From Dictyophora rubrovolvata (lineage: Eukaryota > Basidiomycota > Agaricomycetes > Phallales > Phallaceae), in NCBI GenBank assembly GCA_029959195.1, contig CP114119.1:1116001-1180000 (forward strand): 64,000 nt of DNA, given 5' to 3'. Position numbers and translations under genes: made by a program. The notes under the pieces are model-generated. The model did no database searches. It was not told the DNA's origin and was given only the letters and a program-made list of their open reading frames with translations. This document shows positions 12,656-56,150 of the stretch, in pieces; positions within the stretch are counted from its first letter, which is position 1; every line of letters starts with the position of its first letter.

Positions 12656-14098
12656 ATGCCTCCCAAACCTCGCATGATTCCTCGGAAAGCAGTGCAATCC
12701 GTCGAACTAGAACAAGCCAGGAATGCAGTTTCTTCCAGAATGCCACCCCCACCTTCTCCAAAAGCTTCGCATGTAATATTGCACTCTGAGTTGGATACCC
12801 TAGAAGCGTCGTACAGAGACATAGTTATTGCCGCAGGAAAGCTGTTTCAGTTTTATTCCTATTCAAGAAAAGAGTGGGTCTATCATATATTATCAGCAAC
12901 TTTAGTTTTTGAACAATACTCCCAATTCAGACGAATAGCAACTTATTCACCATATCCACCAGCCTCAACTGCACGTATGTTAGGACGCTCCCTTGAAAAA
13001 TATGACCAAATCTGTGACACAATAGAAACACGTCTAGTACGTCTACTTTAATAAAAATTTTAAAAACATCATAAAGACGCGTACGTTTCTTGATTAGCAA
13101 CACTCCATTGCAATCATCCAGCGTGATATAAAGACCTTGAAGACTCGTCTAAATGCAGAAGCAGAAGAGTCAGCTCAGCGTAAACCAATTTCTTCTTCAA
13201 CAACACCCGCCTTGTTAGGATCTCCCACTGATCAATCTTCTATGCTTACGGATTCCACGCTGAGCAATGTTCTACCTGCTTTATCTATGCAAAATCGACG
13301 ACAAAGCGCTATATTATCTTCATTGCATCGACCAGGATTTCCTCTCAAACTAGATTTATCTTCCCTTAGCTCACATACAGATCCTTCCTTTGCCACACCG
13401 GTAGACGTTTCGGTCGATTTGGGTTTGACAAGAGCACCCAGTCCAGTAACATTGGCACCCAAAACAGCAAAAACTTTGACCAACGAACCACCGCTTGACC
13501 TCTTTATTAATCCTGCGCATCAAAGTATTCCGGAGCTGTCTATGGGCAGCGATAATACTGCATCATCAAAATTAACCGTGCCAATGCCAGGCAAAGACGT
13601 CATTGACCTAACTTCCGATTCGGTGACAAGGACTCAATTGGGTGACTCCGCAGACAAACCCATAGAATTGGACATGGACACAAGCTACGATGATATGGAC
13701 TTGTTTGGAGATCGCGCCACTATTCCCCGGGATGTTGTGTCCGTCGAGACTGTTCAAAATAACAGCCCCATTAACACCATTCCTATACCGCAAAATTTGG
13801 ATGAGAACCTGAATAAGCTGCTGATGGGTGCGTCCGGCCAAAGTAGTTCTCCCAAGAATTCATCCATGTCGCTCCATGAAGAGCCGTCGTCATCGCACTC
13901 AGGTAATGATTCCTCCGCAGACGCATTTCGACTGTTGGAAGAAAACCGGCGATTTAATCTAACGAACGTCGATTTTTCCGCACTGACTGGTTTATTTAAT
14001 GCTGGAAATGGAGCTTCGATTCCCCAAACGAATGCATCGTCAGATTTGGATATCATGTCCCAACTGCTTGAAATGGAAGGAGGCAATCGGACAAGCTG
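12656..14098 (+). CDS. Unrecognised Ser/Thr-rich protein with N-terminal helical region
   Basis: Two exons, 12656..13036 and 13122..14098, joined in frame (IETRL-RDIKTLKTRLNAEAE). The N-terminal part (about 125 aa) looks helical (LDTLEASYRDIVIAAGKLF ... YDQICDTIETRL) and is followed by about 320 residues of Ser/Thr/Asp-rich low-complexity sequence with repeated Leu/Asp patches (PIELDMDTSYDDMDLFGD). The C-terminus carries FNLTNVDFSALTGLF. The layout recalls a fungal transcription cofactor such as a Mediator tail subunit, but I do not recognise the family and assign no function. A further intron between 12850 and 12930 is possible. Confidence 0.6.
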
Positions 14099-14802
14099 AT
14101 TTAGGAAAATATATTTTCGCTTTGTTTATACATATATTGTACATATATCTCTCTACATTAAATTGATTTTAAGGAATTTAACGAGGATTACTGTATTGTA
14201 GCACCAGTGATCTGGTTTTTGACAACACAAGTACTACTATGGCGGATGATCTTGTTTGACTCCATTCCGGGATTTCTGTTCTTCTTGTGATTATCCGCTT
14301 TGGTCTAGGCCCTATGTGGATAAGTACCAAGAGCCCGAAAGCAAGATTATACAACTCGTGAGCTTCAGACGTGCCGACTCGCAGCAATGCCGCGAGACCC
14401 AGTAGTAAAAGTTCTTATGACAACTACCTGCTTGCAACCATATGATATTATCGTCGTCAATGTAGATAGAATAGAAAATACAGAAGGGGGAAAGCTGATG
14501 CGCAAATCGTGCTCGGTTCTTTTTATCAAAATGTATCAAAGCATTTAAACTCCAGCTGTAGCGTACGTTTATACACAAATAGCGCGAATTCGAAACCAAA
14601 TCATAGCATAATCCGACGGATCTATTCATTCTTGATTAGCTAAAACGAAAATATTGTATGATTGAATGTGACGCACGTTATTCGAGATAATAGTACTACA
14701 GGAAGATCATGTAAGAGCGATGATATATTATGACGTACAAAACCGAGCAACGGGACGTTGTAGGTAAAACAATGGCAATGAAATACAAAGAATAAAAAAA
14801 AA
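14099..14802. other. Convergent intergenic region
   Basis: About 700 bp of AT-rich DNA between the 3' ends of the Ser-rich gene (+) and the G-alpha gene (-). Open frames here are short and lack conserved features. No tRNA-like arms or repeats were seen. Confidence 0.55.
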
Positions 14803-16576
14803 TTAGATTAGCGCGGCCTGTTGTAGGTTGTTTCGAAGTGTAATGCTGAAAAATGGAAAAGGGTATGTGCGAGCAATCAGACGGACAAGATATGGAGTGG
14901 GTGGTGTGAGATACCGGGAATAATGAAAACGCAAGGGTATAAGTGCACTTACTCTAGAGAATTATGAGATTTGGCATTTTCATAGTAAGACAAAGGCTTA
15001 CCTTCAACAGCAGCCATTACTACTCTTAACAATGCCGTGTCTGTAGCGTTAGTAAAGCTTCAGAAGTTTCAAAAGAAGTTCGTTGACGGAGTCAAGAAAG
15101 ACACAAACTGGGTATATATTTCTCGTTCATTTACTCTGTTCGCCTTCGCGCTGAGGCGCAGGAAACGTTTTTTAAAGTATTCCCGACCAGCCGCAGCGTC
15201 TCGTGGTGGACCATCATAATCCTAAACTCCACTAAGTACAGGCTAACAGAGATAATTATATACGTACGGGAAAAGTGTCCTTAATATTTGAGTGCAAAAC
15301 CTTCTCAGAGAAAAGATCGTCTTTATTCAAAAATAAAATCTATAGATATTTTTTGTTAGTTGGAAAAATAATTGCAGTAGGTCCGCCCACAATCGAAGTC
15401 TTTTTAAACCATTGTGAATGGCATATCGAATCCCAAATAGTCATTGCATCCTGCATTTGATTCTATGTTTAACAGTCAGAAAATGATTAAATACGGCGAA
15501 AAGTATACAAGGGGAACAAACAGCATCTTTGTCTTCCACTAGGCATTGGTCATATCCACTGAGAGAAACAAGAAATAGAATGCTGGTCACGTCCTGAAAA
15601 CAATGGATCCATTTACGCCGTTCTGATTTCTGGCCGCCAACGTCAAGCATATGCATGTCGTGGGTTCGAAGTTTGAACACTGTTTCTGTTATACCTGTTG
15701 TTCTTGCACGCGATCGAATAATGTCCTGTCAACTTATTAACTCATATGATCTAAATAAACACCAAAACGTGCCGAACTTGTTCTGTGGGCATATACTGAG
15801 GAGTAAAAAGTCGCTCCAAATCTGCATAGAAGCTTGGGAAAAATTGTTGAGAAATTTTGTGGACTGTAGAGTTGCTAATTTCGTACTAAGTTAAGCTGAA
15901 AACATCGCTTAGCGTTTATGACATGTTCTGCGGATCTGGGACTAACTTTTCGGGTAGTGCCGCCTCATTGCTTCTAGCGATTGCTTTTTTTACGCCATCG
16001 TCTTGCCATAAAGCTTGGAGACACTTGAAATATTCTATTGGAAATGGTTCTTGATCACGCAAATCCGGCGCTTCGAAAACCATCTCCACGTTCGCCTGTA
16101 TTGGATTTATTATTCACAAGAGGAGCGATGAAAATCAGATTAGATAGATACCTGATTTTCATCCTCGACTTCGACTTCGAGGTCCTCCATGGCTTCCAGC
16201 ACGATACGCAGACCTTGAGTGATGTTGTTGAATACTAGTTGCCTATAAAACTCCACTTCCTGTGCGGTGAACGGAACTTTATGAATTAATCTCATTTGCT
16301 GAATATCGCTGTTTTGTCAGCAAGTGATAAAAACCCAAGCCATGACCGCTACAGTACCTTCAAAACTGTCGATTTTCCTGAGTCACCCGAGCCTAGAAGA
16401 AGAACTTTGACCTGATTGTCTATTTTAGCCTTTGTCTGTTTAACAAACACCGTGAGTAAAAAAAATAATGTCTTTAATTAGCATCGTATAGAATAAACCT
16501 CTTTTAAATCCCTTTCGACCTCCTTGTTTCGTTTGGTTTGTTCAGGGTCCCCATGAGTAGATACACAGCCACCCAT
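14803..16576 (-). CDS. Heterotrimeric G-protein alpha subunit, divergent fungal type
   Basis: GTPase switch that couples membrane receptors (for example pheromone receptors) to effectors. The N-terminus [10 protein letters not shown] has the myristoylation glycine and a palmitoylation cysteine. G1 reads GSGDSGKST, switch [10 protein letters not shown], switch [20 protein letters not shown]4 FLNKDDLF, G5 TNATDT. About ten exons are joined by GT-AG introns; one intron of about 120 nt precedes [18 protein letters not shown]. The last coding exon is 14803..14845. Reaching the family C-terminus ([15 protein letters not shown]) requires a single-nucleotide exon at 14953. The Glu to Asp change in G1 and Cys to Asn in G5 mark it as non-canonical. 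It is divergent from the E2 gene. Confidence 0.9.
14953..14953 (-). other. Predicted 1-nt micro-exon of the G-alpha gene
   Basis: On the minus strand the context is ctctag|A|gtaagt: a consensus acceptor and a consensus donor share one nucleotide. The intron upstream is 14954..15001 (GTTGAAG|gtaagc) and downstream 14846..14952 (tttttcag|CATTACA). G + A + C then form the Asp codon of VMAAVEDITLRNN. Without this nucleotide the frame shifts and ends after 13 unrelated residues. Confidence 0.7.
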
Positions 16577-53407: not shown

Positions 53408-56150
53408 ATGTCGTTGAGCACGTCTGCCAGCGCTGGGCCTTCCACGCCACCAAACCCCTCTCTAACGAATGACCCACATCAGATTGTGCTAGACTATCTC
53501 CGATCCAGGGGTTTCAAGAAAACAGAGCAAGCTTTGCGGGAGGAGTTGGATGTTGGAGGTGACAAAGAGACCACACACATTCACCATGGCTTGTCCAAAT
53601 TGCTAGCAAGTTTGGATGCCGCTGGTGCTGAAGAAATACTATCGCTGGACCCCTCCGACCGTGCCGAAGGGTTTAGAGATCTTGAATCCTGGGTGGACGG
53701 CTCTTTAGACATGTATCGCGTGAGTATATTTGAGACTCGGCAGATTCAGGATTTGGCGTGGTCTATTACTTATATCTTTTTCCAATGTAGCCGGAGTTCA
53801 GACCTATACTATTTCCTATTTTTGTGCACTTCTATCTCGATTTGATCGAATTCGGGTTCAAAGACGCAGGCAAGTTTGTTTCCAGTTTATCATATGCGGA
53901 CCGAAATGGAACGACTGTCAGCTCTGTCTTTCTTTCATAATTATTCCACGTCCCTCCTTTCAACGCATAACGATGTTCTCCGCCATCTTGCTACGCTCCT
54001 ACTCCCCATCCATGTACAAAGCGACGAAGCAGCTCAAAGGTTTCGCAATGAAAAATACACTGTTAAAATGAGTCGTTCTGGTTTCGGCCTGTTAATCGGG
54101 TGGCTGACGGAGGGAACCGGCGGTGAAGCTCTCGGAGCTGGACATGGCTTCATGGGAGAGAGAGGACGTCGTGGCCGAGCAGCTGTTATGCGAGTGGTCA
54201 ATAATCATGTCCAGTTTGATGGTATTTGAGCTGCATCTACCTTGATTTTTTTTCTAATATAGGCTTTCGTAGTAACGCAATCCAACCCGACGTCGGTTTC
54301 TCCCGATACTTGGGAAGAGTCCACAGGTCTTCTATCTGCTGTAACACAATTAAACGGCTCAAAGGAATCCACTCATGCTTCTGATCCTCAACCTTTCAAT
54401 CATGCCCGAGGCGCACTCAAACTAGGCCCTCTTCCTTTGGACGATGGAGTTCGTCAAGAAGCCGAACGGCAAATACGAGAACAACAAATGGCTGGATTCG
54501 ATCCAGAAGTGAGTGGTGGCAGTCAGCACGACCTTCCTTTCCCCTTTGGTGTCGTACCTGCTGGTATAACCACACCGACCGTTAATGATCTACTTCCACG
54601 TCCACCCTTGTTCAAGACAGTAGACATTCAACGAGAAGTCGATCGAATACGTGATGCCAGAAAACGCATCAAGTTAGACCCCTCCGTCCTTTCGGGAGAT
54701 GTAGATATCCATGGGTTTGACAAGCAGTCTAGTACCGCACGAGCCAAGGCTCTCCCCAGCATATGTGCATACACTTTACATGATGCTCTAGATGGGTTAG
54801 TATCGAGCTTCTCAGATTCCCAATGATTCCACTGACATGTCATTAGCGTGCCTTGCGCCACCTTTTCAAATGACTCCGCTTTAATGGCTGCTGGTTTCTC
54901 GGAGAGCTACATTCGGTTATTCAGTTTAAAACAAGAACGACTGCGTGGAATGCGTAGTGACTTCCAGGAATCCACTATAAGAGATTGTGAGTTTGCAAAG
55001 TACTTTCACTACAATTGACTTACTGTCTGTGGCTTATAAGCTACTTCGTTACGACGTTTGAAAGAAAAAACCGGTTCTACGACGCGCAAACTTATAGGTC
55101 ATAGTGGGCCGGTATATTCCGTAGCGTTCGATCCTTTAGGTGGCTCTTCTAGATCGCCGCGGTATTTGCTCTCTTCCTCCGCTGATTCTACGGCGCGATT
55201 ATGGTCTTTGGATACGCTTTCAAACGTTGTTGCGTACCGTGGGCATTTGGGTTCTGTGTGGGATGTGACTTGGAGTCCACTGGGGATTTACTTTGCCACA
55301 GGCAGCCGAGATCGTACTGCTCGATTATGGTCGACAGATAGAATCGCACCGTTGCGAATATATGCTGGCCACCTTAGTGATGTTGATGTACGTGGGCCCA
55401 AAAAAAAATTGTTCTGGCCGCTGACGGACGACTTTTAGTGTGTTGCTTTCCATCCTAATTCTCTCTATCTGGCTACAGGTTCTGGTGACTGGACATGCCG
55501 TCTATGGGACGTTCAAAAAGGTTCCTGTGTTCGCGTGTTCGTTGGTCATCAAGGATCTGTTTCTGCTATCGCAATGAGTCCAGATGGAAGGTATCTTGCT
55601 AGTGCAGGTGATTTTCATTCGCATTTGTATGCAACGAAGACATAAAAATATTTCATAGCTGAGGATTTAGCCATCAACCTTTGGGACTTGGGGTCGGGCC
55701 GAAGAATAAAAAAGATGACTGGGCATACTGCGTCTATCTATTCTCTTGCATTTAGTGCCGAATCGTCGCTCCTTGTGAGTGGAGGGACGGATTGTACTTT
55801 AAGGTGTTGGGACGTGAAAGGGGCAGGTGGTTTACCAGTCAAAGCCCATGACGGCGACGAGTTAGGCGACTTTGCTCTCGGCTCTGTTGTCGAAGAATTT
55901 GCGGGAATGCGTCGGATGCGGAAGGGATTATCAGAAGGCAGCGGTGATGTTGTCGAAGAAGAAAGTATTGAAACGTTCGTGAAATATGTTTAGATCCTGT
56001 CTCAATCTTGTCTGACGTATTTTTTTTTTCTCAAGCGTGGACTTGCTCGCCACATTTCCTACCAAACGCACCCCCATAATAAATGTACAATTTACGCCTC
56101 GTAATCTTTGTTTAGTCGCTGGGTCTTTCTTATCTCCGGATAACGTATAA
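53408..56150 (+). CDS. TAF5: Transcription initiation factor TFIID subunit 5 (TAF5)
   Basis: Scaffold subunit shared by TFIID and, in fungi, SAGA. After [15 protein letters not shown] comes a LisH-like helix ([20 protein letters not shown]), then the NTD2 region [25 protein letters not shown] intron (53870..53921, GACGCAG|gcaagt) leads to [12 protein letters not shown] and [20 protein letters not shown]. Six WD40 repeats follow, for example [76 protein letters not shown] and [14 protein letters not shown]. The final exon ends ITNVQF-like [23 protein letters not shown] at 56150. About 750 residues, normal for fungal TAF5. Confidence 0.93.

Follow-up and report, generated by a model that had tools for sequence, protein, structure and literature searches.

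A putative single-nucleotide exon ahead of two candidate last exons in a mushroom G-alpha gene

Position 14953 in the window, the whole stretch of 64,000 nucleotides from Dictyophora rubrovolvata contig CP114119.1 that was analysed here, is very probably a real exon of a G-alpha gene that is only one nucleotide in length. The initial annotation had proposed this exon from a single locus, and sequence, reading frame, relatives and the errors of database models all agree with it. The interpretation is supported because Asp is found at the relevant codon in 74 of 74 transcript-like records from relatives, because database models of relatives fail at this same codon, and because a candidate alternative last exon, exon B, depends on that base as well, and in an identical phase. 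The single A would complete the codon for the conserved Asp in the C-terminal helix.

The G-alpha gene and its one-base junction

The gene lies on the minus strand of a window taken from a genome of 28.2 Mb in 11 contigs, and encodes a G-alpha subunit. The PF00503 profile matches with an E value of 1.9e-113 (the query being an earlier 369-aa gene model), and nucleotide-binding motifs, whose roles in this protein we take to be those known from G-alpha, are present in the final protein of 358 aa. Among the matches listed in the protein search with the 369-aa query, the nearest named relatives belong to Clathrus, Hysterangium, Sphaerobolus, Ramaria and Gautieria, which probably makes the source a phallomycete. 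The gene is made up as follows.

16576-14803, minus strand: gene for a G-alpha subunit, with 13 coding exons and, when last exon A is used, 358 aa
15895-15887, minus strand: 9-nt microexon CTTAACTTA, supplying most of N-L-T-Y in LPENLTYFYADL
15057-15002, minus strand: exon 11, ending VMAAVE + G, phase 1
15001-14954, minus strand: intron before the putative 1-nt exon, 48 nt, gtaagc...ctctag
14953, minus strand: putative single-nucleotide exon, base A, middle base of the Asp codon G/A/C (G/A/T with exon B)
14952-14846, minus strand: intron from the putative 1-nt exon to last exon A, 107 nt, gtaagt...tttcag
14845-14803, minus strand: last exon A, C ATT ACA CTT CGA AAC AAC ... ATC TAA

The 369-aa model was rejected, as it held a wrong stretch of 14 residues, and putting the 9-nt microexon in place gave the model of 358 aa, in which LPENLTYFYADL is restored. 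The first protein search, the alignment with solved chains and the Pfam run were all carried out with the 369-aa model, before this correction. Relatives such as P0002, P0003 and P0006 have LPENLTYFFSDL at the place that the microexon encodes. The microexon seems to be passed over in P0004, P0157 and P0158, database models that have four residues there as against seven in a comparison whose search pattern was unmatched in 80 of 177 records. Tail to tail with the G-alpha gene, the plus strand carries an open frame of 333 aa at 13098-14099 (stop to stop, with no start required), for which Pfam gave no match.

Exon 11 closes with GTT GAA G and is followed by gtaagc. Joining it directly to last exon A loses the frame, and inclusion of the A at 14953 regains it and yields the conserved Asp codon, the base being required for both. 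As the initial annotation described, exactly one base separates an acceptor-like ctctag from a donor-like gtaagt, and the same frame result, GAA GAC ATT leading into the family-typical end, was obtained here. Its statement that no single intron keeps the frame was too strong, for the frame is open as far as LQQAALI in ten single-intron models with GT/GC-AG borders and a length of 40 nt or more. All ten add or remove residues near the junction, and none of them (0/10) gives the family tail; the nearest are VEGNITLR, which takes a GC donor lying 4 nt downstream, and the model that retains the 48-nt intron and thereby inserts 16 residues. Four internal exons that keep the frame, with flanking introns of at least 40 nt, were enumerated, and the family tail is left unchanged by the 1-nt exon only.

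The arrangement is also uncommon as a string of letters. Between exon 11 and last exon A there are 156 nt, in which AG-N-GT occurs once. Among 20,000 dinucleotide shuffles of this interval, YAG-N-GTRAG appears in 0.11% and YAG-A-GTRAGT in 0.015%, while the whole window holds YAG-N-GTRAG three times on its two strands, or about 0.0037 per 156 nt. The other ten introns in the final model measure 46-63 nt, and a single intron of 156 nt would greatly exceed them all. Of the donors in the gene, the gtaagt that follows the A matches the donor consensus most fully.

Opposite the Asp supplied by the putative exon, both solved chains whose alignments were displayed, Go and Gq by name, also have Asp. 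Two paralogous G-alpha genes of the same genome, L021 (G000:C5:2720400-2723000) and L022 (G000:C2:1715900-1718100), are free of introns at this point; the matching codon reads Asp in L021 and Glu in L022. Within the genome the arrangement is thus seen in the window gene only, in a comparison that covered L021 and L022. The genome also has two divergent G-alpha-like genes, L023 (G000:C9:834800-837200) and L024 (G000:C9:703000-705500), L023 having long Ser/His-rich stretches.

The Asp codon in relatives

Relatives were collected by three protein searches, the second and third with relatives P0095 and P0092 as queries, from which the best 120 of 7,484, 4,393 and 7,983 matches were pooled to give 177 distinct proteins. 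The database is clustered at 90% identity, and each of the 177 stands for one cluster. Seventy-four records occur in jgi, lgn or ena only, have a longest contig of 1.2-3.2 kb and hold a whole or nearly whole, uninterrupted G-alpha; these we take to be spliced transcripts, with source type used as the proxy. The remaining 103 come from ncbi, uniref or nr. Nearly all of them lie on larger genome contigs (none is listed for P0102), and by the same proxy they are probably for the most part predictions from genomes.

Asp without an insert follows VMAAVE or a variant of it in all 74 transcript-like records (73 are of the VMAAVE type and P0142 has VMTAVE). Since P0158 and P0161 stop before the site, 101 of the 103 database models reach it, and just two of these have Asp (P0098 and P0121), both continuing with sequence unlike tail A or tail B. 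For 74/74 against 2/101 the Fisher p is 8e-48, a number that ignores relatedness and is a guide only.

The manner in which the database models fail is itself informative. VEE followed directly by a stop closes 28 of the 101, including models from Clathrus, Coprinopsis, Agaricus, Exidia and Tulasnella. If exon 11 is spliced into AG/A/GTRA and then read on, the result is GAA GAG TRA, or E-E-stop, whereas straight read-through of the first of the two introns (intron 1) would put Gly first, unlike these endings. The 28 models therefore suggest that the same arrangement is present in the DNA of the relatives. Alternatively, VEE-stop may be a real truncated product, or may have been copied from annotation, if P0102 (Flammulina filiformis, in nr only) is a cloned sequence, as this record with such an ending may be, and not a genome model.

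A further 15 of the 101 models have Gly for Asp in an otherwise exact frame (seven have tails of type A and eight, P0130 among them, of type B), which we read as an extra transcript base aligned to the neighbouring genomic G. Ser occupies the Asp position in six of six over-long A-end models (P0006, P0051, P0052, P0076, P0106 and P0122), as is expected if an acceptor AG abuts the last base of the codon. Another seven A-type models carry a single residue too many, with GN, GS, GA or GY ahead of the tail, most simply through a donor shifted by four. The tail is lost in the other 45, which include both models with Asp, and many of these begin with Gly, as intron read-through would.

On the strength of these protein endings, the one-base exon looks conserved across the Agaricomycetes. 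Searches for the DNA of relatives, with P0001 in viral_contigs and with an alignment in genome_contigs, gave no match, as neither collection is expected to contain fungi. The breadth that they point to is unusual, and would extend from the Phallomycetidae to Tulasnella and Exidia, which we take to belong to the Cantharellales and Auriculariales, respectively. Serendipita P0122, presumably of the Sebacinales, has VEEYVF, the read-through of AG/A/GTAYGT, and P0160, presumably of the Dacrymycetes, is the one model from that class and has Gly for Asp; both are consistent with the arrangement.

Two candidate last exons and competing readings

The transcript-like tails fall into two types, with 42 of the 74 ending in A (such as D-I-V-L-R...AALI) and 32 in B (such as D-T-I-I-S-N-N-I-R-E-I-M-L). 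A profile of nine residues made from 31 of the 32 B tails points to a candidate counterpart in the window.

14952-14696, minus strand: putative alternative intron from the 1-nt exon to exon B, 257 nt
14695-14626, minus strand: candidate last exon B, (D)TIISNNVRHIQSYNIFVLANQE then stop, found with the B-tail profile

Among 3,626 eligible AG/Y sites on both strands of the window, 14695 ranks first, at 17.05 bits as against 5.1 bits for the next; when the acceptor requirement is dropped, a plus-strand site at 55881 scores slightly higher, at 17.42. Exon B starts with T, and so needs the same A at 14953 in the same phase (G + A + T = Asp). Two alternative tails that face the receptor may thus have this A as a common preceding step. 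We judge the odds to be about even that the one-base exon has been kept across the Agaricomycetes, and perhaps the Dacrymycetes, as a shared splicing step ahead of two mutually exclusive last exons, one nucleotide thus feeding a choice between two C-termini.

An evenly balanced alternative, and one compatible with the main reading, is that exon B is a decayed remnant, the one-base exon feeding exon A only in this species. The frame of exon B runs 10 residues past the family stop, as decay would allow, but its acceptor and phase agree with the family profile, as do most of its first nine residues. Exon B also contains GTGCGT...TTTTAG, which could be a very short intron of 37 nt (counted by eye). 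The A and B tails of other species may come from separate genes, a source that clustering of the database at 90% leaves possible, because A and B isoforms of one species are not visible side by side in it. Among the listed relatives, the best identity between an A and a B body is 91.6%. Two records named Armillaria solidipes, one for each tail, differ along the body (90% identity), which fits two genes or two different strains better than it fits two isoforms of a single gene.

We infer from sequence the splicing in this species, the order of intron removal and the use of exon B. The two flanking introns would be removed one after the other, which is probable because machinery assembled on ctctag and on gtaagt would overlap. 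Were the 48-nt intron to leave first, for example, this would create a fresh donor, GAAGA/gtaagt, which could then be joined to last exon A or to exon B.

The junction can be explained in other ways. Single-base indels do occur in assemblies, and an assembly error or a recent loss of one base would mean that the true sequence is AG/ACATT behind an ordinary intron of 157 nt, with ctctag-A-gtaagt arising by chance. This is very unlikely, as the motif seldom arises by chance (in 0.0011 of shuffles), exon B would require a second, independent missing base, and the same anomaly is met in relatives, in the 28/101 models with VEE-stop and in the Ser of 6/6 over-long A-end models.

Two readings call for a single intron. 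Use of a shifted GC donor, GAAGGTAA/gc, is exceedingly improbable: it keeps the frame, and VEGN does appear in database models P0004, P0012 and P0023, but the extra residue is present in 0/74 transcript-like records and the gtaagt donor is ignored. Retention of the 48-nt intron, adding 16 residues before the Asp, draws on the gtaagt donor and on a length that is a multiple of three, in frame and free of stops; the insert, however, is found in 0/74 transcript-like relatives and would be expected to split the C-terminal helix, and we regard this reading as most unlikely. A form retaining the 48 nt may occur as a minor isoform.

Relation to known single-nucleotide exons

If the family-wide reading is true, fungi would have a single-nucleotide exon that is both old and widespread and, so far as the open literature searched shows, the first in the Basidiomycota. 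Searches of open papers, which in two cases covered 20 of 112 and 15 of 1,866 hits, listed neither a mushroom nor a G-alpha gene with a 1-nt exon. It would also follow that for this G-alpha most mushroom models in the databases (99 of 101 examined being without the Asp) end in a wrong C-terminus, which is the receptor-recognising part of the protein. The gene would then offer accessible material for studying how an exon of one base is dealt with by the spliceosome, and whether alternative splicing can make use of it.

Stwintrons are nested fungal introns, and like the arrangement proposed here they involve two stepwise excisions at one site. In a stwintron, one intron sits within a splice site of another and splits it, and nothing is retained. 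At the G-alpha junction, by contrast, the gtaagt donor is whole and one base stays, and a stwintron reading was rejected on these grounds. Placozoan mitochondrial cox1 is processed by another splicing machinery. It has a single base pair exon, and so resembles the G-alpha case in exon size while differing in being a mitochondrial gene (PMC5436844).

The initial annotation had called one-nucleotide exons rare and given Arabidopsis APC11 as its example; the example holds, and plant VPS55 (PMC8831610) and Fusarium CYP621A (PMC12940212) are further cases. For the APC11 exon, GFP fusion constructs served as the test (Guo and Liu 2015, PMC4674806). Like the G-alpha exon it is a single coding base between two introns, for which its authors proposed stepwise removal, but it belongs to a plant ubiquitin ligase subunit, and the accessible text describes no alternative last exons (PMC4674806). 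The 1-nt microexons of plant APC11 and VPS55 share with the G-alpha exon their conservation over a large clade and their omission from reference annotations, and VPS55 has the same GTRAGT donor (PMC8831610). Unlike the mushroom gene, VPS55 is a plant gene and, in the portions seen of that report, varies by presence of the exon or intron retention and not by choice of last exon (PMC8831610).

CYP621A of Fusarium is, like the G-alpha, a fungal nuclear gene with a phase mismatch in which the single base is the middle one of a conserved codon, and its combined intron likewise exceeds twice the median length (Nelson and Syed 2026, PMC12940212). It differs in that Fusarium is an ascomycete, the base is G, the product is a cytochrome P450 and SRA reads support the exon (PMC12940212). 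Single-nucleotide exons are therefore already known, and the G-alpha case adds another, in which the apparent breadth and the putative link to two alternative last exons would be the unusual features.
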